From: Dawidia soli
GTDB lineage: Bacteria; Bacteroidota; Bacteroidia; Cytophagales; Cyclobacteriaceae
DNA length: 35,811 nt
Reading direction: 5' to 3'
Assembly (NCBI RefSeq): GCF_018598185.1
Contig: NZ_JAHESC010000060.1
Location: forward strand, 1-35,811
The number at the start of each line of letters is the position of its first letter. Positions within the stretch are counted from its first letter, which is position 1. The position numbers and the translations under genes were made by a program. Below the pieces are notes generated by a model. The model saw only the letters and a program-made list of their open reading frames with translations. It made no database searches and had not been told where the DNA came from. Below are positions 21,369 through 35,025 of this stretch, piece by piece.

Positions 21369-21788
21369 TCAGCGTTTGAAGCCGAGGGCGCTGCCGCCGC
21401 AGTATGTTGTCGAACCGTCGAAGGTATACTGGATGTAGTAGATGCCGGTGGTGTTGCACGGATAGGCAATGGCCGACACGAACTGACCGTTGATCTTGCT
21501 GGTAGCTACTTTGTTCCGGTTAGAGTCGAAAAGGCTTACCACGATGCCGTCTGTGGGCTGGGCCGAAGCGCAGATGTTGATCATATATTGTGTGCCTTTG
21601 GTGAACACATATGAATACTCCACGAAATCCTTTCCTCCTTTTTCGATCTTATAGCTTTTCAGAAAGTTAAATCCTTCGGCCAGTTTGGGAATACACTGGT
21701 TGCTCAGGGCTTCCGAGTTGCACTGTCCGATAACTTCCAATGTGCTCAGAACGAAAACGGATAGAACAATAAACATTAACTTTTTCAT
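21369..21788 (-). CDS. Small secreted cysteine-containing protein of unknown function
   Basis: I do not recognise this 139-residue protein. It has a clear signal peptide (MKKLMFIVLSVFVLSTLEVIGQ) and a beta-rich mature domain with five cysteines, C23, C32, one in NICASAQ, one in YPCNTTG and one in TTYCGGSALG. In the oxidising periplasm some could form disulfides. The segment IVVSLFDSNRNKVATSKINGQF followed by YYIQYTF has the look of a jelly-roll or pre-peptidase-like beta-sandwich. It follows the lipoprotein gene by 27 bases in the same direction and precedes a strong terminator, so it is probably the last gene of that unit. Confidence 0.8.
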   Translation of the reverse strand: MKKLMFIVLSVFVLSTLEVIGQCNSEALSNQCIPKLAEGFNFLKSYKIEKGGKDFVEYSYVFTKGTQYMINICASAQPTDGIVVSLFDSNRNKVATSKINGQFVSAIAYPCNTTGIYYIQYTFDGSTTYCGGSALGFKR

Positions 21789-21815: not shown

Positions 21816-22715
21816 TTATGATATAATCTTGGTTCTGATGGAAGAGGTAACCGCGCTGATGCTGGCAATATCTTCGGGAGTAATTTCAATCGTGCTTGTG
21901 CTGTTATCTTTGATAACGGCTACTCCGTTCACGATCTCCATCGTAGATTCTTTGTACGTGTACGTGATCTTAACTTTGTCGTACACTTTCTTCAGCTCTT
22001 CCATGTCAGTCAACAATGATGCCATGTTTTGGTCCGACTCCTTGTAGAAGGAGAGGAGGAGCATGATGCTTTCGAGGATGATCTTCTGCTCGCCGATCGT
22101 TTCTTTCAGCTGCTGATTGTCGGGGTTTGCCATAGCAGTAGCACAGGTTATGTGCAGCGCTTCCAGCCAGCCACCGGTCAGGAACAGCACGCTGAGGTTT
22201 GCGCGGCCCTGCGATTGCAGATAGTGGTTGATGGTGTTGAAGTTCTGGGTGGTGATCAGCAGCAGCGAGTCGAGGTTCTTGCTGTTGGTGGCCAGGCGGC
22301 CGATGGTTTCGATGTCGAAGAACTGACCGATGCTCAGACCGTCTGCCAGGGTTTTGATAGAAGCCATGTACTTCACACCGTCCTGGTTCTGCTCGTAGAT
22401 GTTAGTGTAGCCCAGGTCGGTACCATAAAGGCCCAGGTTGAGGGCTTTTTTGTAGTTGGTGTTGTACTTGGAGGTGTTGTCCGGAGAGTTGAGGTAAGAG
22501 GCGTTATACTTCTTGCCCGATTCTTTCAGGAGCACGGAGATCTCCAACGGACTGGGGATCTGTTGAAGAATGTCGCCAATGACTTCTTCGGATATGGTAG
22601 GGCCTTCGGTTTTAGCCGAATCTATCTCTTCCAGGAAGGCTTGTTCGTCGGGTTTCTTACCTCCGCAAGCAGACAGTAGGATTGCCAGACAGAGCCCGAT
22701 AGGTAATATTCTCAT
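21816..22715 (-). CDS. Lipoprotein of unknown function
   Basis: A 299-residue protein with a lipobox LSAC (C17) and GGKK after it, so it should be lipidated and sit in the inner or outer membrane facing the periplasm. The mature part is mainly helical (for example QQLKETIGEQKIILESIMLLLSFY and MASLLTDMEELKKVYDKVKITYTY), ending in a short beta segment and a Ser/Thr/Ile-rich tail. I cannot assign a domain family. It has its own promoter upstream (22751-22780), lies 82 bases after the ABC transporter gene and before a small secreted protein. The clustering suggests an envelope module with the transporter. Confidence 0.85.
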   Translation of the reverse strand: MRILPIGLCLAILLSACGGKKPDEQAFLEEIDSAKTEGPTISEEVIGDILQQIPSPLEISVLLKESGKKYNASYLNSPDNTSKYNTNYKKALNLGLYGTDLGYTNIYEQNQDGVKYMASIKTLADGLSIGQFFDIETIGRLATNSKNLDSLLLITTQNFNTINHYLQSQGRANLSVLFLTGGWLEALHITCATAMANPDNQQLKETIGEQKIILESIMLLLSFYKESDQNMASLLTDMEELKKVYDKVKITYTYKESTMEIVNGVAVIKDNSTSTIEITPEDIASISAVTSSIRTKIIS

Positions 22716-22797: not shown

Positions 22798-25700
22798 TTA
22801 TTTCTTTTTTGCCTTCGGCAGGCTCAGCTTGCCCTCGATCTTGTCGAAGGACTCGATAAACTTACGCAACAGCTCGAAGTAAAGGGTTATGTACAGCAAG
22901 CCTGCCATGATCCAGATGACCAGCAGGTCGAACCAATAGGTGCTGAACGAGATGCCCAGGAACTCCTTTTCCGGTGCGAAAAACTGTGCCCGGTAGTCCA
23001 GCGGACCTTTGGGTGCGGGTGGCAGGAACACGGGGTTGATCTGTTGAATAAGCTCTCCGTTGAACTCGATGATCCGGTTCTTTTCGTTCACGTTCTTCAC
23101 CAGGTCGGCCAGGCTTTCGTTGAAGTAGTTGTTCTTGTAGTCGTTCAGCTTGTAGTCGGGATCTTTCTCCAGTTGGAGGATCACGTTCTCACGGGCTGCC
23201 ACGGCTTTGTTATACGCGCCCTGGTAGAACTTCTTGTAGGCGATGAGGAAATCTTCCAGCTTCTTGTTAAAGGCCGGTGTGAAGTCTTTCAGCGTCCAGT
23301 CGGCGGCCAGCTCCTTCTCCAGACCCTTTTTGAAGTAGTCCTTGCGCAAGGTGGCTTCGATGATGGTCAGGTCGCTTTGCAGCTTCTGCCGGACCGAGTC
23401 CGCCTTTTCGTCGAGGTTGGCGGCGATGTCGCGGCGCTTCTTGTCAAGCTCGTCCACCAGGAAGGAGGAACGGAAGTCGGCTTGCGCTTCGATCTTCTCG
23501 AAGGTGTAATAGGGTTTCTCGTACGAGTTCTCTTTGAACTGGTACACGGCCAGGGCCTCGTAGGCCCACCGGGAGGCCATCATATCGGCCACGATGGGTA
23601 CTTTGCCTTTGGTGCTGATCAGGTCGTTGAGCTTGTCGAAGCTGAACAGCAAACCGCTCAGGATCATCTGCGGAATGAGCAGCAGCGGGATCATGACATA
23701 CACGGTAACGGCCGAGTTGAAGGCCGACGAGATGTTCAGACCGAGCACGCTGGCAAAACACGACGTTGTGAACAATACCAGCCAGAAGGGCAGGAGCATG
23801 CTCCACTCGATCTCCAGGATGAGGTTGCCGATGAGGACGAACAAGAACGTCTGGATGGCCGACAGGGTGAACAGGATCCACACTTTCGACATGAGATAGC
23901 TGTTCCAACTCAGGTTGAGGAACGACTCGCGACGCAGGATCTTCCGGTCGCGGATGATCTCTTCGGCACTTACCGTGAGGCCCATAAACAACGCCACGAT
24001 TATGCTCATGAGCATGAAGGCGGGGAAGTTGTCGTTGAAGCGGAAGATGTATTCTTTACCCCCCGGTGCGCTGCGGTATTTGATGATGAAGGCAAGGATG
24101 ATGGCCAGCAGCGGTGCTTCGAGCAGGTTGATCAACAAATACTGCTTGTTGCTGAGCTTCGACAGTGTATCGCGCGTCGCGAAGACAAGTGTCTGGCGCA
24201 GTTTGTTGGGGAGTGTCAACGAGTGCGGCGGTTCTTCGCGCACGTCTTCGACCTTGTTGATCTTGAAGCGTTCTTTGTACAGGTCATACCACTGCGGCGG
24301 GGTGATCTTGCGCTTGTTGGTTGGCTGCCCGTACTCGTCGACCACCTTGGCCTCGATGATGTTGAAGATCTGCTCGGGGTTTACGTTACCGCAGGTCTCG
24401 CATTGGCCGCGGTTGCTGTCTACCTGGTGCGTCGACTTTTTAAAGTATGTTACGGCTTCCACCGGCGGACCGTAGTACGCCGGGTAGCCGCCGGTGTCCA
24501 TGATGATCATCTTGTCGAACATCTTGTAGATGTCTGACGAAGGCTGGTGGATCACGACAAAGATCAGCTTGCCCTTAAACGAGAGCTCTTTGAGCAAGTC
24601 GATGACGTTTTCGGAGTCGCGCGACGAGAGGCCCGACGTGGGCTCGTCGAGGAAGAGGATGGCGGGCTCGCGGATCAGCTCGAGGGCGATGTTGAGGCGT
24701 TTGCGCTGGCCACCGCTGATGGTCTTGTCCAACGGATTGCCCACGCGCAGGTCTTTGCGCTGGTCCAGGCCGAGGTTTTCCAATACCTCCATGACGCGCT
24801 GGTGCAGTTGCTCTTCGGTAAAGTCGGCAAAGCACAGCTTGGCGTTGTAGTACAAGTTCTGGTAGACGGTCAGCTCCTCGATGAGCAGGTCGTCTTGCGA
24901 CACATAGCCGATGACCCCATGGATCCGGTCTTTTTCGGTATTGATGTCGAAGCCGTTGATGAGGATCTGGCCCGTGGTAGGCTGTACAAGGCCGGCCATG
25001 ACGTTGAGCAGGGTGGTCTTGCCGGCGCCGGAGGCGCCCATGATGCCGATGAGCTTACCGGGGCCTTCGGAGATCCGCACGTTGCGCAGGCCGATGCCGC
25101 CGTTGGCGAACTTCAGCTCGTCGATGGTGACATTGAAAGACAGCTTGGTGGTCTTGAGCTCTTCGTTGTAGTTGGCCACGAGGTCGCTGTAATACAACGC
25201 GTCGCCGCCCTGGGTCTTGATGGTGCTGCCGTGTGAGAACAAATACACACGGTTGGGCTGCATCATGAAGCCGTTCAGTACGTTCGACTCCTCGCCCAGG
25301 TATTTGGTGAAGTACATTTCGACTCCGCGTACGCGCATGAAGATGAGCGTGCCGCCGATGTGTCCGTGTACGTGTTTATAGATCTTGCCTTCTTCGCCGC
25401 GGGCGGCGGAGTTGAGCAATAAGATGTCTGCAAAGTTGAGTGTCGTGGGGTCTTCCGCGCGCACGAAGCTTTCGATGAGATCGTATTCCTCCTGCACGAT
25501 ATTAAATACGGTGGAGACGGTATTGATGATCTCCATCCGTTGGGCGGTAAAGTTCTTGTCGGTGCTGACCAGTTCCAGCAGCTTGATCAATACAACGACC
25601 TTCTGCTTTTGCGTGAGGGTCTTGTTGATCTTCTTACAGATGCCCAGTGTCTTTACGGAATCTTTTACAGAGGTCAGCTTCTTTTTTCCCTCTTCCTCGT

Positions 25701-25884
25701 CGTCTGCTTTACCGTAACCGGAAAATTGGTCATAGAGGTCCAGGTATTCTTTTACAGAATCCTGGTCGAGTTCCGTCTGGAAGAAGTTTATAACGTATTG
25801 CCGCTCTCCTTCAGTAGCGCCGCCATCCTGTTTTGTGATAATCGCAAAAAGCTGGGTGAGGGCTTTGAGTATTTCTTCACTCAT
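22798..25884 (-). CDS. ABCG-type ABC transporter, fused ATPase/permease with TerB-like N-terminus
   Basis: The 1028-residue protein has, in order: an acidic helical TerB-like region (about 1-142); a short beta-rich linker (about 165-245); an ABC ATPase with Walker A GASGAGKT (283-290), signature SGGQRKR (390-396), Walker B LFLDEP (410-415, E414) and H-loop H446; a CETC cysteine pair (495-498); an ABC-2/ABCG membrane domain (about 560-790) with several helices; a charged, helical, probably extracytoplasmic insert of about 170 residues; and a last transmembrane helix near 985-1005. The ATPase-before-permease order is that of White/ABCG half transporters, which dimerise and usually export lipids or hydrophobic compounds. 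Substrate unknown. It lies between the SiaABC-like operon and the lipoprotein gene; the preceding terminator suggests its own promoter. Confidence 0.92.
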   Translation of the reverse strand: MSEEILKALTQLFAIITKQDGGATEGERQYVINFFQTELDQDSVKEYLDLYDQFSGYGKADDEEEGKKKLTSVKDSVKTLGICKKINKTLTQKQKVVVLIKLLELVSTDKNFTAQRMEIINTVSTVFNIVQEEYDLIESFVRAEDPTTLNFADILLLNSAARGEEGKIYKHVHGHIGGTLIFMRVRGVEMYFTKYLGEESNVLNGFMMQPNRVYLFSHGSTIKTQGGDALYYSDLVANYNEELKTTKLSFNVTIDELKFANGGIGLRNVRISEGPGKLIGIMGASGAGKTTLLNVMAGLVQPTTGQILINGFDINTEKDRIHGVIGYVSQDDLLIEELTVYQNLYYNAKLCFADFTEEQLHQRVMEVLENLGLDQRKDLRVGNPLDKTISGGQRKRLNIALELIREPAILFLDEPTSGLSSRDSENVIDLLKELSFKGKLIFVVIHQPSSDIYKMFDKMIIMDTGGYPAYYGPPVEAVTYFKKSTHQVDSNRGQCETCGNVNPEQIFNIIEAKVVDEYGQPTNKRKITPPQWYDLYKERFKINKVEDVREEPPHSLTLPNKLRQTLVFATRDTLSKLSNKQYLLINLLEAPLLAIILAFIIKYRSAPGGKEYIFRFNDNFPAFMLMSIIVALFMGLTVSAEEIIRDRKILRRESFLNLSWNSYLMSKVWILFTLSAIQTFLFVLIGNLILEIEWSMLLPFWLVLFTTSCFASVLGLNISSAFNSAVTVYVMIPLLLIPQMILSGLLFSFDKLNDLISTKGKVPIVADMMASRWAYEALAVYQFKENSYEKPYYTFEKIEAQADFRSSFLVDELDKKRRDIAANLDEKADSVRQKLQSDLTIIEATLRKDYFKKGLEKELAADWTLKDFTPAFNKKLEDFLIAYKKFYQGAYNKAVAARENVILQLEKDPDYKLNDYKNNYFNESLADLVKNVNEKNRIIEFNGELIQQINPVFLPPAPKGPLDYRAQFFAPEKEFLGISFSTYWFDLLVIWIMAGLLYITLYFELLRKFIESFDKIEGKLSLPKAKKK

Positions 25885-25908
25885 GGTTAGAAAGCAATTT
25901 TATAAGTA

Positions 25909-25976
25909 TAAAAAAATATCGGTTATCAGCCTCCCGCAACCCGGTTAAAGGGGCCCTTTTACGACTGATAACCGAT
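25909..25976 (-). terminator. Terminator of the SiaABC-like operon
   Basis: A 12-bp perfect inverted repeat, ATCGGTTATCAG (25918-25929) and CTGATAACCGAT (25965-25976), encloses 35 bases and is followed on the minus strand by ATTTTTTT. It begins 35 bases past the stop of the SiaC-like gene. It separates the regulatory operon from the ABC transporter gene. Confidence 0.8.
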
Positions 25977-26011
25977 TACCATACAGTGGGCTTCGTACCC
26001 CACGGTAGCCA

Positions 26012-26374
26012 TTAATAGGTCTTAAACTCGAACGGAATCTCTACCAGCTCAGAGAACTCCTGGCCGGCTTCTTCCATGTCTTCGTCGTCTTCATGGAAGT
26101 ACCATACGATGCGCATTCCCTTGATGTCTTCGAGGGCAGAGAGCACATCCAGGATCAGCTTCGAAGAAGCCGTGTTGAAGTATTCCAGCTTGAACACGAA
26201 CTCTGTGGCAGGGTGGGGTTCGGCGCCATACTTGGCGATCCATTCCAGCACCGGGCGGTAGAATTCAGCAGAATCTTCAGGGAGCGAACGGCCGGAGATC
26301 TCAAAGATTCCGTTTTTCTTATCGAGGATTATTTTCGGGGTGTCTTCTGTTCCTTCCAGATTCAAAATTTCCAT
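26012..26374 (-). CDS. SiaC-like partner-switch protein (DUF1987)
   Basis: A 120-residue acidic cytoplasmic protein of the DUF1987/SiaC family. The phospho-acceptor motif YFNTASSK is present, with the threonine at residue 68, the same number as the phosphorylated T68 of Pseudomonas SiaC. In that system the kinase SiaB phosphorylates SiaC, the phosphatase SiaA removes the phosphate, and unphosphorylated SiaC activates the diguanylate cyclase SiaD. The fold is related to anti-sigma antagonists. It is the last gene of the operon, 39 bases after the SiaB-like gene and before a strong terminator. No cyclase is encoded in the window, so the target of this switch is unknown. Confidence 0.92.
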   Translation of the reverse strand: MEILNLEGTEDTPKIILDKKNGIFEISGRSLPEDSAEFYRPVLEWIAKYGAEPHPATEFVFKLEYFNTASSKLILDVLSALEDIKGMRIVWYFHEDDEDMEEAGQEFSELVEIPFEFKTY

Positions 26375-26413
26375 GGTATAAGTCTATTTAGATTGTTCTA
26401 TAATTCAATGATG

Positions 26414-26962
26414 TTATTCGCTGTCGCGCGGTACGTTCACTTTCAGACAGAAGAAGCAGTACTCGGCAGACATTTCCGGGAATTCGAATTCCAGTTTTTC
26501 TCCTGACTTTCTGGCCATATCCACGAACCCCAATCCGGCGCCACCTTTTTCGGAGATGGTTGTATTCTTAATGATCTCTTTATATAAATCTTTCAGGCCT
26601 TCTTTTTCCAATCCGTTGATACGCTCGAGGGCGGCTTGCAGTTTGGAAACATTCTCCTTGCGGATGGGGTTGCCGGACATGATCGAATACCGGTTTGCCT
26701 CTTTACCGATGAGGAAGATCGCCGCATGGCTGCGCATCTGTCCTTCGACCAATTCGTCGCTGTGTTTAACAATATTCTGGAGAGCTTCGACCATCACATT
26801 AAATACCTTGCGCTTAATGCTAGACTCTTCCCCGGAAGAATCGAGATTTCGCTCGGCCATGGATAGTATGGACTTGGTGCTCTCCTGGGTAAAGTCACCC
26901 TGATAGACCAGAATGAGTTTCTGTGACATCATGGTGCGGTGCAGGTCATAAATGAATTTCAT
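26414..26962 (-). CDS. SiaB family protein kinase (DUF6272)
   Basis: A 182-residue GHKL-type protein. The N-box is visible as NVMVEALQNIVKHS (N55 to S68, with E59 and N63) and a glycine-rich ATP-lid motif KGGAGLGF at 139-146; these are the ATP-binding elements of SiaB-type Ser/Thr kinases, related to anti-sigma kinases such as SpoIIAB. The expected substrate is the SiaC-like protein encoded next. It lies 100 bases after the SiaA-like gene, longer than other gaps in the operon, but I see no convincing promoter or terminator there, so co-transcription is likely. Confidence 0.9.
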   Translation of the reverse strand: MKFIYDLHRTMMSQKLILVYQGDFTQESTKSILSMAERNLDSSGEESSIKRKVFNVMVEALQNIVKHSDELVEGQMRSHAAIFLIGKEANRYSIMSGNPIRKENVSKLQAALERINGLEKEGLKDLYKEIIKNTTISEKGGAGLGFVDMARKSGEKLEFEFPEMSAEYCFFCLKVNVPRDSE

Positions 26963-27062
26963 GCGTCAGAAGATTTGATTAAGTTGAGGTTCACTAAGTT
27001 AAAATTTATTTTTTACCAGACCTTCCCGGGCTTATAAAACCCCGGAATTCCGATGTCAGACA

Positions 27063-30000
27063 TTAGAATTTTATGCCGATCAATAACACGTCGTCTGTTT
27101 GTTTATGATCGCCACGCCAGTTCTCCCATTCTTCGTCGAAGACACTGACTGCGTCGTGCATCGACCCCGTGTGGACGCGTTCGACAATCTCGCGTGTGCG
27201 CTTCGGTCCGAACTTCCGGCCTTCGGGACCACCGAACTGGTCGGGGAATCCGTCGGAGCTGAAGTAGATCGAATCGCCTGCGCTGAGCTCGACTTTTGTA
27301 TTGGTAAAGTTAGTCTGGTTCTTATAGATACCACCACCGATGGGGAACTTATTGCCCTTTACCTCCTCCATTGCGCCATTTTTCATGACGTATAGGGGGC
27401 GGTGGGCGCCGGCGTATTCCACTTCGCGGGTTTCCATGTTGATCTTGCAGAGCGCTATATCCATACCGTCTTTGGTGGTGGAGTCTTCGTCCTGGCGGAG
27501 GGTTGTCGTTACCCCTTCGTCCAGCAGGTCGAGGATCTTGCCGGGTTCGGTGATCTTCCGGCTGCGCACGATGTCGTTCAGCAGGAAGTAGCCGATCAGG
27601 GACAACAACGCACCCGGTACACCGTGTCCGGTACAGTCTACGGCGGCGATAAAGATCTCGTCTTTGATCTGAACGAACCACGGGAAGTCACCGGATACCA
27701 CGTCGCGGGGTTTATACAAGATGAACGAGTCGGGTAACGCCCGGTTGATCACTTTGCTGTTGGGGAGGATCGCCGTCTGGATACGCTTCGCGTAGTTGAT
27801 ACTTTCGGTGATCTTTTTGTTCTTGTTCTGGATCTCGAGCTCGATCATTTTCCGCTCGGTAATATCGTGCGATACCACGAGGACGGATTCGAGCTTGTTC
27901 GACTCGTCGAATTCGGGGATGGCGTTCACCTGCATGATGCGCTTGCCCATTTCTGAGGGGAAGTCCATTTCGGTGTCGGCCTTTTCATTGGTCGCATTCA
28001 CTTGTTCTACGACCTTGAGCCAGCCTTCCAGTACGGCGGTGTCGAGCTCGGCATCCTGCACCTTGCGGTTGAGGAAGTATGCGGGCTCTTTGCCGGTGTA
28101 CTCCTGGATCACCGGGTTGATATAGGAGATCGAGTCGCCTTCGAGGCGGGTGATGAGGTCGAGCGAGTTTTCCGAGAGAGCTTGCATTTTCGAGCGCATG
28201 CGCTGCTCCTGCTCGGCCCGGCGGCGTTCGGTAATGTCGCGTGAGTTGAGGATGAAGCCGTGGATGGCCGGGTTGGCCATACAGTTGGTTCCGGTAGACT
28301 CCAGCCAGATGAAGCTGCCGTCTTTGGTGCGGTATTCGTACTGCACGGTTACCTTCTCATCGGGCGACTCTTTCATTTGAGTGAAGAGCTCGCGGAATGT
28401 ATCGCGGTAGTCGGGGTGTACCTTGTCGATGTCGCTTTTTGCGATCATCTCTTTCTGGCCGTAGCCTAGGATGGTCTCTACCGACGGCGAGATATAGCGG
28501 ATGCTTTCGTCTTCTTCGTAGATGGTGATCACCTCGGAAGCGTTTTCCAGCAACAGCTGCATGCGGCTCTGGGTGCGGTTCACTTCTTCGATCTGCTCTT
28601 CCAGTTTCTGGTTCGAGCGTTGCAGCTCCTCCTGCGTGGCCTGCATTTCTTCGGCGTTCTGGCGCAGTACTTCCTGCTTTTCCTTGAGCTCGTTACTCAT
28701 CTCCTGCGACTCGGCCAGCAGCCTGCGTGTGCGCTCGTTCACTTTGATGTTAAAGATGGTACGGGCCAGGATGAGGGAAAGCTCTTGTACGAACTTAACC
28801 TGCGACGCGTCGAAGCGGCGGAAGCCGGCAAATTCGAGTATGCCGTACACTTCTTCGTTGGTGATCAGCGGTACGATGAGGATACATTGCGGGCGTTGGT
28901 CGCCGAGGATACCCGAGGTGATGGTGACGTAGTCATCGGGTATTTCGGTGCGCAGTACGGTATCTTTTTCGGCAGCGGCCTGGCCTACCAGGCCTTCGGC
29001 CACACGGAATTTTGCTTTGAGGTATTTTTTACGGTTGTATGCATAGCTTGCGCGCATTTCGATCAGGGCCGGCGTTGTCTCGTCATTTACGACGTAGAAG
29101 GCCCCCTGGATCGCGCCGATCTTTTCGAGAATAAACCGGATGACATCGTCGCCCAGCTCGTCGATGGAGTCGTGCATACGCAGGATCTCGCTGATCTCGG
29201 CCACACCGCGTACAATCCAGTTGCGTTCTTTATCCTGGCGTTCGTTCTCGATGAGGTTGTCGCGCATTTCGATGAGCGACTTGCCGAGGATGTCGTTTTC
29301 GCTGGCGGGTGTAAACTCGGTGTCGTATTTACCTTCGCCGATGCGTTTTGCAAACTCGGCGTTGCCGCGCAGGGTTTGTACGAGCTCATCTACTTTGTTG
29401 CCCATCTGGCCGAATTCGTCGCTGTTGCGTTGCTCGGTGGTTTCGGGCAATACACCTTGTGCCACCAGGCCGATCGTCGTGCGCATAGAATGCAGCGGGC
29501 GCATGAGGGAGCGTGAGAACATCATCGAAAGGAACACCGCGAGGGCTACGATGCACAGGCCGGCATACACGAACAGGCTGGTGAGCTTGCCGTCGTGGCT
29601 GTGTACTTCATCCAGGTTGATCTTTCCCACCAGGGCGAAGCCACCGTGCGAGAGCTTGCGGCCTACCTGCAGTACGGCATTGCCGTGCAGGTCTTCGCTT
29701 TCGCCCGGGAGAGACTTGCCGTCTACCAGTTGGGCAAAGCCTTTCATGAAGTGGTTTGTGGTGTCGTGCGGAATGATGGCCGACGAGGTGTCGGCACGTT
29801 GCGGGCTGACGATGGCAATTTTGCCGGTGCCGGGATAGACGCGACCCAACAGCAACTCGCCGCTGGTGCCCAGACCGTGGTAGTTCTTCAGCACGCGGTA
29901 GGGGTGCGTCAGGTCCAGGGTGATAATGATGAGCTGTTGCGTGCCGCTGGCGTCTGTTACCGAGCCGGCTACATACGAAAAAAAGTTCTTTGTACGCTTG

Positions 30001-30557
30001 TCGCGGATAACTTCCGAAAAATAAATGTCGCTTTTAGCTTTTTCAAAGATGTGGCCGTCCTGATCGATGAAGTTGCCTTTGATCGTCGGATCTGTAGACG
30101 CTACTACTGCGCCGTTATCTGACGTAATGGTGATCTGTGCTACGTCGAGAATTGACTTTTGATCGTTGAGGTAATCCAGCAGGGGATTGCCGCTACCCGT
30201 GGGTTCTTCCAGCACAGCGGTCGTATCGGGCTCGGCGGAAGGTTCCGGGGAGGGGGGCATCATGGCCATCATGGCGGCCATCGGATCATCTGCCGGTGCT
30301 GCGCTGGTACTACCGTCGCCGCTCTTCAGGCGTTCGGAGCTTTGCAGTACGCGTACCGCCAACGCTGCCTTGTCGAAGAACGTATTCAGATACGCGGCGC
30401 GGTTATCGACCAACGCCGCCAGTGTGGCCGAGTACTTTTCCTCGTTGGCCTTACGGTGATAGTCATAGCTGAAAAAACTGATCGAGGCGACGGCCACGAG
30501 CGACACCATGAGAATAAGAATCGTAATTCTGGTGGTGATGTTTATGCTTTTCATCAT
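27063..30557 (-). CDS. SiaA-like sensor with HAMP, GAF, two PAS and SpoIIE/PP2C phosphatase
   Basis: The 1164-residue protein has TM1 (about 9-30), an extracytoplasmic sensor (31-324) with a Met/Pro/Ser-rich low-complexity stretch (80-122), TM2 (about 325-347), HAMP (348-400), GAF (about 470-620), a Gln/Glu-rich coiled coil (about 620-670), PAS (about 672-790), PAS (about 797-920) and a SpoIIE/PP2C phosphatase (about 945-1163). Metal-binding aspartates are visible in VVSGDFPWF, DCTGHGVPGALL, SSDGFPDQ and TDDVLL (1154-1159). The expected reaction is dephosphorylation of the SiaC-like protein. Compared with Pseudomonas SiaA, the GAF and PAS domains are extra inputs. It lies 18 bases after the GAF-protein gene. 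Confidence 0.93.
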   Translation of the reverse strand: MMKSINITTRITILILMVSLVAVASISFFSYDYHRKANEEKYSATLAALVDNRAAYLNTFFDKAALAVRVLQSSERLKSGDGSTSAAPADDPMAAMMAMMPPSPEPSAEPDTTAVLEEPTGSGNPLLDYLNDQKSILDVAQITITSDNGAVVASTDPTIKGNFIDQDGHIFEKAKSDIYFSEVIRDKRTKNFFSYVAGSVTDASGTQQLIIITLDLTHPYRVLKNYHGLGTSGELLLGRVYPGTGKIAIVSPQRADTSSAIIPHDTTNHFMKGFAQLVDGKSLPGESEDLHGNAVLQVGRKLSHGGFALVGKINLDEVHSHDGKLTSLFVYAGLCIVALAVFLSMMFSRSLMRPLHSMRTTIGLVAQGVLPETTEQRNSDEFGQMGNKVDELVQTLRGNAEFAKRIGEGKYDTEFTPASENDILGKSLIEMRDNLIENERQDKERNWIVRGVAEISEILRMHDSIDELGDDVIRFILEKIGAIQGAFYVVNDETTPALIEMRASYAYNRKKYLKAKFRVAEGLVGQAAAEKDTVLRTEIPDDYVTITSGILGDQRPQCILIVPLITNEEVYGILEFAGFRRFDASQVKFVQELSLILARTIFNIKVNERTRRLLAESQEMSNELKEKQEVLRQNAEEMQATQEELQRSNQKLEEQIEEVNRTQSRMQLLLENASEVITIYEEDESIRYISPSVETILGYGQKEMIAKSDIDKVHPDYRDTFRELFTQMKESPDEKVTVQYEYRTKDGSFIWLESTGTNCMANPAIHGFILNSRDITERRRAEQEQRMRSKMQALSENSLDLITRLEGDSISYINPVIQEYTGKEPAYFLNRKVQDAELDTAVLEGWLKVVEQVNATNEKADTEMDFPSEMGKRIMQVNAIPEFDESNKLESVLVVSHDITERKMIELEIQNKNKKITESINYAKRIQTAILPNSKVINRALPDSFILYKPRDVVSGDFPWFVQIKDEIFIAAVDCTGHGVPGALLSLIGYFLLNDIVRSRKITEPGKILDLLDEGVTTTLRQDEDSTTKDGMDIALCKINMETREVEYAGAHRPLYVMKNGAMEEVKGNKFPIGGGIYKNQTNFTNTKVELSAGDSIYFSSDGFPDQFGGPEGRKFGPKRTREIVERVHTGSMHDAVSVFDEEWENWRGDHKQTDDVLLIGIKF

Positions 30558-30575
30558 ACGTGTTCGGCGCTGGTA

Positions 30576-31343
30576 CTATGCTTTGGTTGAAATTTTATCG
30601 GCCACCAACTGTGCGGCTTCCTCCACGAACTTGCGCTGGTCTTCCGTGATATTCGTAAAGGAGGCAATCTCAACGATTCCGAGCACTTGCGCTTGTTGTT
30701 TTATAGGAACGATCAATAAGTAGCGGGGAGAGGCGCTGCCGAGGCCGGAGATGATCTTGATATACCCGGCCGGGACGTCGTCCACATACAGTGTACGGGC
30801 GCTGGCGGCGGCCTGGCCTACGAGGCCCTCGCCGAATTCAAACCTGATCACGGTGCTTTCGCCTACGGCGAGGGCGTAGCCGTTGTGGAGCTCGACGGTG
30901 CGTTTGCCGTCATCCTCGCGTGCGAGGTATAACGCGCCCTGGCCGGCATCCAGCTGTTTGCAGATGGCCTGCAGGCCGTTGTTGAGTATATCCTTTTGGT
31001 TGCGTGCCTGCTGCAGGCTGTTTTTTACGGTGTCGAGGCTGATGGATGTTTTGCCGGCTTGTTCGGCTTCGTCACGTTTGGCCTGGGCGGCGTCGATGAC
31101 GCGGTCGCGCATGACCACCACTTCTTTCTGGTAGCGCAGGGATGCGGTAAGCGTCAGGGCTCCGAGCAGGAACGTGGCGCCGATGGTCAGGTAGATGCCG
31201 GTGAAGGCAGGCTGATAGCCGTCGGTCAGACGCAATTCGGCGGGGAGCGAGTAGATCAGGTACAGCGAAATAATGATCCCGGCCATAAAGAGCACTGCCA
31301 GGATGACATTGAGATAATATCGATCGTTAAATAAGCCTGTCAT
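30576..31343 (-). CDS. Two-TM GAF domain protein
   Basis: A 255-residue protein with two transmembrane helices (about 10-31 and 47-70), a helical linker (about 75-115) and a GAF domain (about 115-250). The GAF core motifs GEGLVGQAAAS, PAGYIKIISGLG and YLLIVPIKQQAQVLGIVEIASF closely resemble the GAF domains of the SiaA-like protein and the HAMP-GAF protein nearby. There is no kinase, phosphatase or DNA-binding domain, so it probably acts by contacting another component. Its ATG overlaps the cheB stop (ATGA), showing tight coupling with the CheB gene. Confidence 0.88.
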   Translation of the reverse strand: MTGLFNDRYYLNVILAVLFMAGIIISLYLIYSLPAELRLTDGYQPAFTGIYLTIGATFLLGALTLTASLRYQKEVVVMRDRVIDAAQAKRDEAEQAGKTSISLDTVKNSLQQARNQKDILNNGLQAICKQLDAGQGALYLAREDDGKRTVELHNGYALAVGESTVIRFEFGEGLVGQAAASARTLYVDDVPAGYIKIISGLGSASPRYLLIVPIKQQAQVLGIVEIASFTNITEDQRKFVEEAAQLVADKISTKA

Positions 31344-31933
31344 CGGTATTGTTTATCTAATTCCTTTAAAAACTCTACTATCTGATCCACCTTCAGCACG
31401 TGGTCGATCTTGGTCACGGCCAGGGCGGCTTTCGGCATGGTATCGATCATACATTCAGACGGCTCCTGCACAATGGTGAGGCCGCCGCGGTCGTGTATAT
31501 GTTTCATGCCCAGGGCGCCGTCTTTGTTGGCGCCGGAAAGCAGGATACCAATCAGCTTGTCTTTGTAAACAAAGGCGCTGGTGCCGAGCGTAATGTCAAT
31601 GGCGGGCCGGGAGTTGTTGATCATCTCTTCGGTAGAGAGAGCAAAGTGAAGTCCCAGTTCGACAGACATATGGTAATTGGCCGGGGCCAGGTATACGCTT
31701 CCTTTCTTTATATTTTCCTTATCGTGCGGCTCGGTCACTTGTACCACGCTCTTGATGGAGAGCGCTTCCACGAAGCCGTTCCGCACGTGTTTGAGCCGGT
31801 GCAGGCACATAATGATGGGCAATGGGAATCCCTTCGGTAACTGCGACAGGATCTTTACCACACCCTGGAAGCTGCCTGCTGACCCACCGATAACAACGGC
31901 CTTATAGCTGTTATTTAGGTTGAACTTACTCAT
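31340..31933 (-). CDS. Stand-alone CheB methylesterase domain
   Basis: A 197-residue protein that consists only of the CheB catalytic domain; the usual N-terminal receiver domain is missing. The catalytic triad can be placed at S18 (VIGGSAGS), H45 (IMCLHRLKH) and D138 (LLSGANKDGALG). CheB removes methyl groups from, or deamidates, glutamates and glutamines of chemoreceptors, but no chemoreceptor (MCP), CheA or CheW is present in the window. Without a receiver the activity is probably not controlled by a CheA-type phosphorelay. It follows cheR by 20 bases and overlaps the GAF protein gene. Confidence 0.93.
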   Translation of the reverse strand: MSKFNLNNSYKAVVIGGSAGSFQGVVKILSQLPKGFPLPIIMCLHRLKHVRNGFVEALSIKSVVQVTEPHDKENIKKGSVYLAPANYHMSVELGLHFALSTEEMINNSRPAIDITLGTSAFVYKDKLIGILLSGANKDGALGMKHIHDRGGLTIVQEPSECMIDTMPKAALAVTKIDHVLKVDQIVEFLKELDKQYR

Positions 31934-31953
31934 TCGTCAAAGTGCAGCTTCGC

Positions 31954-32775
31954 TTAGTCTTTTATTTTCTTATATATCTTCTCCTCATTGTTTACGACAA
32001 TGAATCGGCTGGCATAGTCGCACCAGATCAATGATTCTTTCGAACCGATCGCCAGGTATCCGTATTTGAACAAGCTCTCGTGGAACTTCTTCAGTACTTC
32101 GTTCTGCAAGTTCTGGTTGAAATAGATCATCACATTGCGGCACAGTACCAGATCGAACTTATTGAAGATCTCGCCCAGCACCAGGTCGTGGCGGCGGAAG
32201 GAGACGTTCATGAAAAGGTCTTTGTGGAAGACGGCGTTGCCGTTCTCTTCGCGGTAATAATCTTTAAAGCTTTTGGTACCCTGGAACCGGATGTAGTTTT
32301 TCTCATTCAGTTCCATGTTCTTGATGGGGTATGTGGCTTGCTTGGCGCGCTCGAGGATGTTTACATCGAGGTCGGTAGCGATCAGCGTCACATCGTGCAG
32401 GATGCCCATCTCCTGGAGCATGATGCACATGGAAACAACCTCTTCGCCCGACGAGCAGCCTGCGTGCCAGATCTTAAACTGTTTGTGGTTGAGCTGGATG
32501 GCGGGGATGATCTCTTCGCGCATGATACGCCAGAAGCTCGGGTCACGAAACATTTCAGTAACATTGACCGTGAGCTCGTCGAGGAACTCGTTGATAAAGG
32601 CTGGTTGTTCGGTTATTTTCTTCAGGAGCGCATCCACCGAAAGCTTCTTCAACTCCATGATCCGGAGCACACGTCGTTTGAACGACGACATGGCATAATT
32701 CCGGAAGTCATAGTTGTACTTCTGGTAGATGAGCTCTGAAATCTTTTTTAGGTCGGCTATGTCGATATCGAGCAT
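31954..32775 (-). CDS. CheR-type protein-glutamate O-methyltransferase
   Basis: A 273-residue SAM-dependent methyltransferase of normal CheR length, with an N-terminal helical domain (about 1-65, SSFKRRVLRIMEL), the characteristic NVTEMFRD (71-78), SAM motif HAGCSSGEE (104-112), a D at ATDLD and LCRNVMIYFN near the C-terminus. It would methylate glutamates on a sensor's helices. There is no TPR extension. It is the first gene of the regulatory operon; a perfect -7 element TAATTTTG lies at 32806-32799. The substrate is probably one of the nearby GAF sensors, as no MCP is present; this is inference. Confidence 0.94.
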   Translation of the reverse strand: MLDIDIADLKKISELIYQKYNYDFRNYAMSSFKRRVLRIMELKKLSVDALLKKITEQPAFINEFLDELTVNVTEMFRDPSFWRIMREEIIPAIQLNHKQFKIWHAGCSSGEEVVSMCIMLQEMGILHDVTLIATDLDVNILERAKQATYPIKNMELNEKNYIRFQGTKSFKDYYREENGNAVFHKDLFMNVSFRRHDLVLGEIFNKFDLVLCRNVMIYFNQNLQNEVLKKFHESLFKYGYLAIGSKESLIWCDYASRFIVVNNEEKIYKKIKD

Positions 32776-32798
32776 GTACAGGTCTTTATAAAGGAACC

Positions 32799-32806
32799 CA
32801 AAATTA
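32799..32806 (-). promoter_or_regulatory. -7 element of the cheR-to-siaC operon
   Basis: TAATTTTG on the minus strand matches TAnnTTTG perfectly, 24 bases before the cheR ATG. No TTG is found at the expected -33 distance, so this promoter may be weak or depend on an activator. Confidence 0.4.
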
Positions 32807-33041: not shown

Positions 33042-34949
33042 TTATCCTTTCCGGTCGAGTTCTTCCTGTGTGATGCGCAGGGCCTCCAGGTTTACCCGGA
33101 AGGTCTTTTCCACCTCTTCGGCTACCTGCCAATCGTCGCTGCGAACGGGCTTCTGGGCAACCGTTGTTTTGAGCGACTCGATGGTCTTTTCGTAGTCGGC
33201 CTCCCGTGCGCGGAATGTGCGGGCTGCCTGTTCCAACGCTTCGGCTGGCGAAACGAGGCCTTTCCGTTCTTCTTCGAGCGATTGAATGCGGGCGATATAC
33301 CCTTGCTCTTTGCGGGCTATCTCTTCCTGGGTGGCTTGCAGCTCCTCCATGTTCTGGCGCATCTCCTCTTCCTGTGCGCGCATCTCCTCTGTCTGTTGCT
33401 GGAACTGTTCGATCAGGTGTTTATTCTTCTGGGCCGATTGTACCGAGGCGATCGTAGAAGCGATGGTCTCGCCGAGGCGTTCGACGAACGCGATCTCGTG
33501 CGGCTGGTATTCGTGGAAGGATGCGAGCTCGACGATGCCGTATACTTTCGTGTCGATCTTCAAGGGCACGATCAAAATAGCCCGGGGGTTGGCGTCGCCT
33601 AACCCGGAGGTGATCCGGACGTATTCGTCGGGGAAGCTCGTGTAATAATTTGTGTCTTTTTCAAGAAAGGTCTGTCCCAGCAGGCCTTCACCCGGTTTGA
33701 TGCGACGGCTCTCGTGTTTCTTGATGTCGTACGCAAAGAGCGAGACCAGCTCGAGGTGCACATCGTGCTCGTCGTCGTCGTTGAGAATGTACAGTCCGCC
33801 CTGGTTCGAGCGCGTGTACTGCACCAGTGATGCGATGATCTGGTCGCCGAGCACGCGGATGTTATCACTGGATGAACGCAGGATATCCACAAACTTGGTG
33901 AGCCCTTCGTTGGCCCACTGGCGTCTGCGCTCCTCTTCGTTCAGGTCCTTGAGCTTTACCTGCATATCGATGAGCGAGTCGGCCAACTTGTTCTTGCCGC
34001 GGTTGTAGCCGTTGTCGAGCGAATCGCGGTAGTCCATTGAAAGGTCGCCCTTGCCAATGGCTGTTACGAAGTCGGTCGCGTCTTTGAGGCTTTCGAGTGT
34101 TTCATTGATCTGGCCGGCCAGCTTGCCGAGCTCGTTCGAGGGTAAATTATACACTTGTTCGTGGCGCGCAGAGGTCTCGGTCAACCGACGGATCGTACGC
34201 AGCACAAAGCGGTCGAAGCAATAATACAAGGCGGCCAGCAAGGCGATGTTGAAAAGAATGATGATCGTTACCCAGTTTTCCACGGCGCGCTTGTCGCGGG
34301 CGACTTCGTCTTCGAGGTCGTTGAAGAGATTGTCATACCAATGCGCCAACGTAATGGCCAGGCTTTCCTGACGCAGGCGGGCTTCGGCGGCCACGGCGGG
34401 GTCAGGCTGAACAAAGGCAGGAGTGCCCACGGCGGCTACCGGCTCAGGTGTAACGACGGCAGCTTGTGTGCTGTCGGTCTGTGTCGTGTCGTCGGTCATA
34501 ACCGGTGCGGGTGCCGGTGTGGCGGCGGTTGTCTCAACGGCCTTTCGTACGGGGAGTAAGGTTGTAACGGTTTCTTTGTATTGATTCCAATACCGCATGA
34601 GGTTGTCATACGAAATGCGGGGGAGGCGTGCCAGCGGTTTGAGGATGACGTCGGTGCGGCTGATGCGGCCACCGTTGCCGAGCACTTCCAGTTGTGCATC
34701 CTGGTGTACGAGGCGTGCCTGAATGTCGACGGCAGTGGTTGTGTCTTGTGGACGGAATCGCTGCACGAGCAGCGAGATCTGCTGGCTGGAGAGCTGTGTA
34801 CTGCGGGTGAAGTCGAGCTTTTGTTCTACTTCGTCGAGGGTGTTGATCTTGTGCCGGAGAATGAAGTACTCGGCGATAAAAAGCACAGCGATCAGCAGAA
34901 GCAGATAGAGACCGATCTGGCGGAGGGATTTGTCACGCAGAAACTTCAT
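33042..34949 (-). CDS. HAMP-GAF sensor protein with coiled coil and no output domain
   Basis: A 635-residue protein with TM1 (about 11-31), an extracytoplasmic region (32-225) containing a long Ala/Pro/Thr/Val-rich linker (about 140-195), TM2 (about 226-246), HAMP (about 247-310), a second helical segment, GAF (about 360-505) and a Glu/Gln-rich coiled coil to the C-terminus. The GAF core (PGEGLLGQTF, DEYVRITSGLGDANPRAIL, VYGIVELASF) is of the same subtype as in the two GAF proteins of the adjacent operon. No kinase, phosphatase, cyclase or methyl-accepting domain is visible. The ATG at 34949 is preferred to a TTG three codons upstream. It follows cytidine deaminase by 76 bases. Confidence 0.9.
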   Translation of the reverse strand: MKFLRDKSLRQIGLYLLLLIAVLFIAEYFILRHKINTLDEVEQKLDFTRSTQLSSQQISLLVQRFRPQDTTTAVDIQARLVHQDAQLEVLGNGGRISRTDVILKPLARLPRISYDNLMRYWNQYKETVTTLLPVRKAVETTAATPAPAPVMTDDTTQTDSTQAAVVTPEPVAAVGTPAFVQPDPAVAAEARLRQESLAITLAHWYDNLFNDLEDEVARDKRAVENWVTIIILFNIALLAALYYCFDRFVLRTIRRLTETSARHEQVYNLPSNELGKLAGQINETLESLKDATDFVTAIGKGDLSMDYRDSLDNGYNRGKNKLADSLIDMQVKLKDLNEEERRRQWANEGLTKFVDILRSSSDNIRVLGDQIIASLVQYTRSNQGGLYILNDDDEHDVHLELVSLFAYDIKKHESRRIKPGEGLLGQTFLEKDTNYYTSFPDEYVRITSGLGDANPRAILIVPLKIDTKVYGIVELASFHEYQPHEIAFVERLGETIASTIASVQSAQKNKHLIEQFQQQTEEMRAQEEEMRQNMEELQATQEEIARKEQGYIARIQSLEEERKGLVSPAEALEQAARTFRAREADYEKTIESLKTTVAQKPVRSDDWQVAEEVEKTFRVNLEALRITQEELDRKG

Positions 34950-35025
34950 GGCGAGCAAGTAAACTAAAATACGCTAAACCCCAAAATTTACCAATTTATG
35001 GCCATGTAGGGTCACAGGCAGATTG

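Follow-up and report, generated by a model that had tools for sequence, protein, structure and literature searches.

A gene cluster of Dawidia soli and other Bacteroidota that joins CheR and CheB to a SiaABC-type partner switch and a candidate methylation coil

Chemotaxis is known to owe its memory to receptor methylation, which tends to be considered together with the methyl-accepting chemotaxis proteins (MCPs) and CheA. A different type of circuit is represented by SiaABCD of Pseudomonas aeruginosa, which consists of the PP2C phosphatase SiaA, the kinase SiaB, the phosphoprotein SiaC and the diguanylate cyclase SiaD; SiaB is reported to phosphorylate SiaC at T68 there (PMC8457831). Here we describe a locus of Dawidia soli, located within a stretch of 35,811 nucleotides (contig NZ_JAHESC010000060.1, positions 1 to 35,811; hereafter the window), in which genes for CheR, a receiver-less CheB, a transmembrane (TM) GAF protein, a SiaA-like phosphatase, SiaB and SiaC are followed by that of an ABC transporter. 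With moderate confidence, we propose that the cluster encodes a CheA-free sensory system, in which CheR and CheB would provide adaptation of sensors that share a coil, the SiaABC proteins would form the readout, and the ABC transporter is the likely effector.

The locus resembles SiaABCD in that homologues of the PP2C phosphatase, SiaB and SiaC are encoded in the same order and the phosphorylated threonine of SiaC aligns, but the D. soli cluster adds cheR, cheB and GAF proteins, its phosphatase carries GAF and PAS domains, no GGDEF protein was found in the D. soli genome, and an ABC transporter follows siaC. With MCP-CheA-CheW pathways it shares CheR and CheB, a dCache-like sensor fold and scattered receptors with a coil of glutamate pairs; unlike these pathways, including those of alternative function, no CheW/CheA domain and no MCPsignal match was found in 11 of its 25 carriers, and its proposed readout is PP2C/SiaBC. 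More distant CheR-CheB pairs of the same class adjoin GAF hybrid histidine kinases (8/8 proteins scanned, covering 8 of the 15 loci), and these likewise place a receiver-less pair next to GAF-coil sensors, though their output passes through a histidine kinase with receivers rather than a Ser/Thr switch. In Salmonella, CheR methylates PhoP, a non-MCP protein (PMC8546571); that substrate is a response regulator, and no link to PP2C or SiaBC is mentioned in the accessible part of that source. A search by title and abstract start, which left the subscription literature mostly outside, found no publication on CheR/CheB joined to SiaABC, or on the coil.

The CheB of the cluster has 197 amino acids and consists of the methylesterase domain alone; Pfam detected no receiver domain in it, and the enzyme is probably unregulated. 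Its residues S18, H45 and D138 align with the catalytic residues of 3sft, and we assume that they hold the corresponding catalytic roles. CheR retains the S-adenosylmethionine motif AGCSSGEE in an alignment with 5ftw. Pfam matched SpoIIE, GAF, two PAS and HAMP domains in the phosphatase, the last barely above cut-off, whilst its PP2C domain matched chain 6k4e (E = 8e-33), which we take to be SiaA. The outer domain was modelled with a dCache-like fold (predicted local distance difference test, pLDDT, 86), for which the first fold matches were an integrative model of Bacillus subtilis McpB and a number of dCache sensors, PctA among them. SiaB scored 177.6 bits against NCBIfam NF038262 (cut-off 85) and matched chain 6kko_A, presumably SiaB; this chain and 6k4e were both labelled 'putative serine phosphatase' in the match list. 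The best NCBIfam model for the phosphatase was that of SiaA, at 207.9 bits under an equivalog cut-off of 700, and SiaC reached 83.7 of the 150 bits of its own, hence both are relatives of the Pseudomonas proteins and not identical ones. Residue T68 of SiaC, within FNTASSK, aligns with the threonine of LNTSS in 6kko_C and was conserved to at least 90% across 81 aligned rows. Three more SiaC proteins (L122, L123 and L124) are encoded elsewhere in the D. soli genome, without siaB and beside unrelated genes that offered no clue to an output.

Related loci were taken as the best 80 of 405 SiaC matches. The order cheR-cheB-GAF-PP2C-siaB-siaC-ABC, with all genes full length, was fixed in 70 of the 80, and the remaining ten reach contig ends, two of them being also frame-broken (PP2C in L119, ABC in L067). 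Gene junctions across these loci are short gaps or overlaps. The lipoprotein and secreted-protein genes that follow the ABC gene were present in all 74 loci with enough sequence, and an upstream GAF homologue of at least 450 amino acids in 33 of the 80. Two loci (L110 and L112) carry a second siaB/siaC pair (siaB of 366 amino acids) and a shorter PP2C gene beyond the ABC gene; L133 is probably the contig of L110.

Outside the family of D. soli, all 21 CheB loci of at least 47% identity were fetched from a class sample of 295 genomes. Thirteen contained siaB/siaC, including one at a contig start without visible cheR (L167) and one with a 67-residue SiaC piece (L177); a further two contained GAF-PP2C only, one was cut and five had neither. 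Two loci of lower CheB identity (L165 and L166) likewise carry CheRB-PP2C-SiaBC. CheR-CheB with SiaBC was thus found in ten families besides that of D. soli, with varying gene directions, and in L172, L173 and L175 parts of the module lie on opposite strands. Both the adjacency of the six genes in relatives, which a preliminary description of the window had named beforehand as a test, and the co-occurrence within the Bacteroidota that it had proposed to look for were borne out. The ABC gene directly follows siaC in four other families (L163, L167, L171-L174), and an upstream GAF homologue lies directly 5' of cheR in L163, L164, L176, L177 and L179. Homologues of the lipoprotein and the secreted protein also occur in L163, L171-L174 and L182, where the gene of the latter is sometimes apart from the ABC gene. 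Passive synteny as the sole cause was rejected, since rearranged copies in other families retain the core. A tree built from 61 CheB domains placed the receiver-less CheBs of the module in one group (support 98/92), which also includes the five without PP2C/SiaBC; the second CheB of L163 fell among MCP-type CheBs.

Co-inheritance was assessed in a family sample of 60 genomes (D. soli and 59 relatives), of which at least 12 fetched loci are also among the 80 SiaC loci, so that the two sets are not independent. A siaC orthologue (74-93% identity) was found in 25 of the 59 relatives, and a cheB orthologue (68-94%) in 24 of these 25 and in 0 of the 34 others; in the exception, G052, the cluster begins at a contig end. 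No CheA/CheW or MCP receptor domain was detected within the cluster by Pfam scan. Matches to MCPsignal and to the CheW domain were both absent from 11 of the 25 cluster-bearing relatives, and because the CheW domain is also part of CheA, these lack CheA matches as well, which strengthens the earlier suggestion that CheA is not used. Nine of the 11 have full-length cheR-cheB, whilst cheR is cut by a contig end in G044 and cheB lies on another contig in G003; at E ≤ 1e-10, nine of the 11 showed no CheB other than that of the cluster. In such genomes CheR and CheB can hardly serve MCPs. That the two enzymes serve the ordinary MCPs, the operon being merely a convenient home, would agree with the MCPs and CheW proteins that D. 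soli itself possesses, but the retention of cheB in the MCP-less carriers, and the fact that the D. soli MCP loci C60 and C89 bring their own CheB/CheR, render this explanation very improbable.

To the receptor methylation proposed in the preliminary description, a candidate substrate can now be added, in the form of a highly conserved coil, QEEExRQNxEExxATQEE, in which glutamate pairs are spaced by a heptad (seven residues). It is carried by the upstream GAF protein, by scattered GAF sensors in which no output domain was recognised and, in a shorter form, by the phosphatase, in which NAEEMxATQEEL stands between GAF and PAS and was matched in 75 of 76 orthologues; the QEEEMRQNMEELQATQEE core of the upstream GAF protein was matched in 29 of 34. 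Across 61 receptor segments, drawn from 21 of 22 scattered proteins (four genomes), 30 of 34 upstream-GAF orthologues and 10 of 41 class proteins chosen by GAF/coil similarity, 12 of 17 positions were identical throughout, and seven (QEEE, RQN) had not been imposed by the search. MCPs are methylated at such Glu/Glx pairs, and of the three MCPs examined, two (L125 and L154) also have Glx pairs seven residues apart. These comparisons make the coil a candidate methylation site, at which CheR would act. The strict motif was found in 22 proteins of four genomes; all 19 that were scanned contain GAF, several with HAMP or Cache, and none of the 19 matched the HisKA, HATPase, MCPsignal, GGDEF or PP2C models. 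Six of the 22 end no more than 60 residues past the coil. With no output domain recognised in them, the coil proteins look like receptors that need a partner for signalling.

The distribution of the coil was followed with two patterns. The looser, a DNA search for EE[LIMF]x[AT][ST]xEE, gave 2-19 matches per cluster genome (n = 25; 14 in D. soli), including 2-13 in the 11 MCP-less carriers, whereas each of the 34 remaining genomes gave 0-2 (zero in 22 of them); a backward-read control gave 0-2 per genome. Since MCPs and CheB genes are included, these counts are not all receptors: among the matches listed, coordinate comparison placed some at real MCPs (G014 and G048 and, within the cluster set, G008 and G052), and others lay near CheB genes (G001 and, within the cluster set, G019 and G036). 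The strict form, EE[LIMF]xATQEE, was detected in 16 of the 20 genomes that carry the module and in 0 of 28 that do not, the former set being drawn from genomes with CheB of at least 47% identity, family carriers and G141, and also G216, the locus of which is cut by a contig end.

Two other explanations of the coil were considered. It might be a helix that merely serves dimerisation or signalling in a duplicated GAF family, with the target of CheR/CheB elsewhere or the co-occurrence due to lineage; E-rich heptad coils are common, the histidine kinases beside other CheR-CheB pairs have different E-rich coils, and the genomes counted are related, such that the counts are phylogenetically non-independent and inflated by relatedness. 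Against such a helix stand the identity of 12 positions in all 61 segments, the absence of the strict motif from the 28 genomes without the module, and the spacing of Glx pairs shared with two MCPs, and we regard it as unlikely. Alternatively, the phosphatase of the cluster could be the sole methylation target, in a closed loop that involves no larger group of receptors. The tightness of the cluster and the near-universal coil of the orthologous phosphatases would fit this; the coil is, however, equally conserved in separate receptor-like proteins, the number of which tracks the cluster, and phosphatases of other families do not have it, so that a closed loop seems unlikely.

With regard to output, no GGDEF match was found in the D. 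soli genome, which makes a SiaD-like output unlikely. A c-di-GMP (cyclic di-GMP) output was set aside, as GGDEF matches occurred in only 3 of the 60 family genomes; of these three, one carries the cluster (1 of the 25 relatives, with a partial match). The best output candidate is the ABC transporter encoded next to siaC, because two relatives of one genus (L172 and L173) possess a protein that joins a SiaC domain to a copy of this transporter's N-terminal region (Table 1). Pfam matched TerB at the N-terminus of the transporter, where an FHA-like sandwich was also modelled (pLDDT 86); FHA domains held the top Foldseek ranks for it, but no match had E < 0.001. Direct reading of phosphothreonine (pThr) by this part is not claimed, only an N-G pair being evident by eye. 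In three other families (f45, f65 and f70) siaB-siaC is doubled and followed, where inspected, by small coiled-coil membrane proteins, and in L166, L168 and L169 such a protein stands in place of the ABC gene; the output may therefore differ between lineages. The doubled pair was seen in L165, L166 and L168-L170.

At the D. soli locus itself, all six consecutive minus-strand genes of the preliminary description were found in their places, with small gaps or overlaps (cheB and the TM-GAF gene overlap by 4 bp) and each confirmed by Pfam, as were the -7 element before cheR and the 12-bp stem with T tract behind siaC (Table 1). That description was correct in its six genes but had ended the operon at the terminator, although the ABC gene beyond is also conserved; the ABC gene, the lipoprotein and the small secreted protein, which it had omitted together with the receptor-like nature of the upstream GAF gene product, belong to the cluster. 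Of 72 related loci, 33 have the pattern TAnnTTTG no more than 80 nt from cheR, compared with 3.8% of random windows drawn from these loci; ahead of each later gene it occurred in 0-4 of 73-80 loci (0/75 for the ABC gene). The cluster may be transcribed as one unit. A hairpin with T tract was found by a strict search in 20 of 75 siaC-ABC gaps, and is therefore not a constant feature; it may be a terminator or attenuator, with the ABC gene perhaps reached by read-through. A plain SiaABC switch beside an unrelated, separately transcribed cheR-cheB is scarcely credible, given the enrichment of the -7 element before cheR alone, the short or overlapping gaps, the recurrence across families and the existence of a fusion in genome G079 (L202:7390-9216, minus strand), in which one protein comprises CheB methylesterase, receiver and PP2C. 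CheB reading frames of like length (608-609 amino acids) in G062, G163 and G239 may match this fusion. In L154 (G014) and L155 (G059), PP2C and siaC genes lie near true che clusters, accompanied by siaB in L154, and this is a second way of joining che and PP2C/SiaC systems.

Table 1. Features of the D. soli cluster, in positions of the window, and of the SiaC fusions in two related loci
Feature	Position	Strand	Remarks
Receptor-like GAF gene, upstream	33042..34958	-	2 TM, GAF, coil QEEEMRQNMEELQATQEE at residues 529-546; EELQATQEE codons 33321-33347; TTG start as listed, ATG 3 codons further in
-7 promoter element TAATTTTG	32799..32806	-	5' of cheR
cheR, glutamate methyltransferase	31954..32775	-	Pfam CheR 1e-40; 5ftw E 7e-34
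cheB, receiver-less methylesterase	31340..31933	-	Pfam CheB_methylest 7e-48; 3sft E 2e-30
TM-GAF protein, two TM	30576..31343	-	Pfam GAF; without Glu-pair coil
SiaA-like sensor phosphatase	27063..30557	-	dCache-HAMP-GAF-coil-PAS-PAS-PP2C; coil NAEEMQATQEEL; EEMQATQEE codons 28626-28652
siaB, SiaB-family protein kinase	26414..26962	-	Pfam DUF6272 1e-41
siaC, SiaC-family phosphoprotein	26012..26374	-	Pfam SiaC 7e-39
Hairpin with T tract in the siaC-ABC gap, terminator or attenuator	25907..25976	-	12-bp stem 25976-25965 / 25929-25918
ABC transporter, ABCG-type, TerB and FHA-like N-terminal part	22798..25884	-	Candidate output
Probable lipoprotein	21816..22715	-	Lipobox by eye; without Pfam family; 3' of ABC gene
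Small, probably secreted protein	21369..21788	-	Signal peptide by eye
SiaC-TerB/FHA-like fusion	L172:5139-6272	-	Between siaC and ABC gene
SiaC-TerB/FHA-like fusion	L173:9524-10648	+	Between siaC and ABC gene

In the mechanism that we propose, the upstream GAF protein, the scattered GAF receptors and, in the family of D. soli, also the dCache phosphatase would act as sensors, all of which share the Glu-pair coil. CheR would methylate the glutamate pairs of the coil and the receiver-less CheB would demethylate them, setting the gain of the sensors and permitting adaptation. The sensors would converge on the SiaA-like PP2C, which would dephosphorylate SiaC at T68, with SiaB phosphorylating it, and the phosphorylation state of SiaC would control an effector, which is most probably the TerB/FHA-like ABC transporter encoded next to it rather than a diguanylate cyclase.

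Besides the points already conceded to the other explanations (the MCPs and CheW proteins of D. soli, the non-independence of the genome counts and the absence of the strict coil from PP2C proteins of other families), several observations weigh against this mechanism. The third MCP examined (L127) does not have the seven-residue spacing, and the looser pattern also picks up true MCPs and CheB-CheR kinases, even in cluster genomes. Four of the 20 genomes with the module do not have the strict motif: G342 and G293 show an AQ variant, whilst the loci fetched from G217 and G141 showed no such motif. As a methylation target the TM-GAF protein was rejected, the motif being present in 0 of 75 orthologues. 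Among the 21 CheB loci of at least 47% identity outside the family, five (L180, L183 and L185-L187) have no PP2C/SiaBC nearby, and in close relatives synteny reaches past the cluster, a deaminase-like gene being present in 55 of 74 loci. Finally, inspection by eye revealed no clear pThr pocket in the FHA-like part of the transporter, and an ABC orthologue is also present without the cluster in three genomes.

Extended to the class as a whole, the same mechanism would amount to a 'methyl-accepting partner switch' independent of MCPs and CheA, in which numerous and diverse membrane sensors without output domains of their own would share a methylated coil, adapt by means of CheR/CheB and act jointly through one PP2C/SiaB/SiaC node upon a transporter, an extension that we put forward tentatively and at somewhat less than an even chance. 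Two known kinds of system are combined here, and if the receptors are methylated and act via PP2C, a new kind of system would result. The same methylation enzymes that serve chemotaxis persist beside a Ser/Thr partner switch in genomes where MCPs and CheA were not found. If the proposal is true, sensory adaptation would be portable as a module, many of the Bacteroidota proteins known as 'GAF domain proteins' would be receptors of one network, and the output of the SiaC family outside Pseudomonas would become testable.

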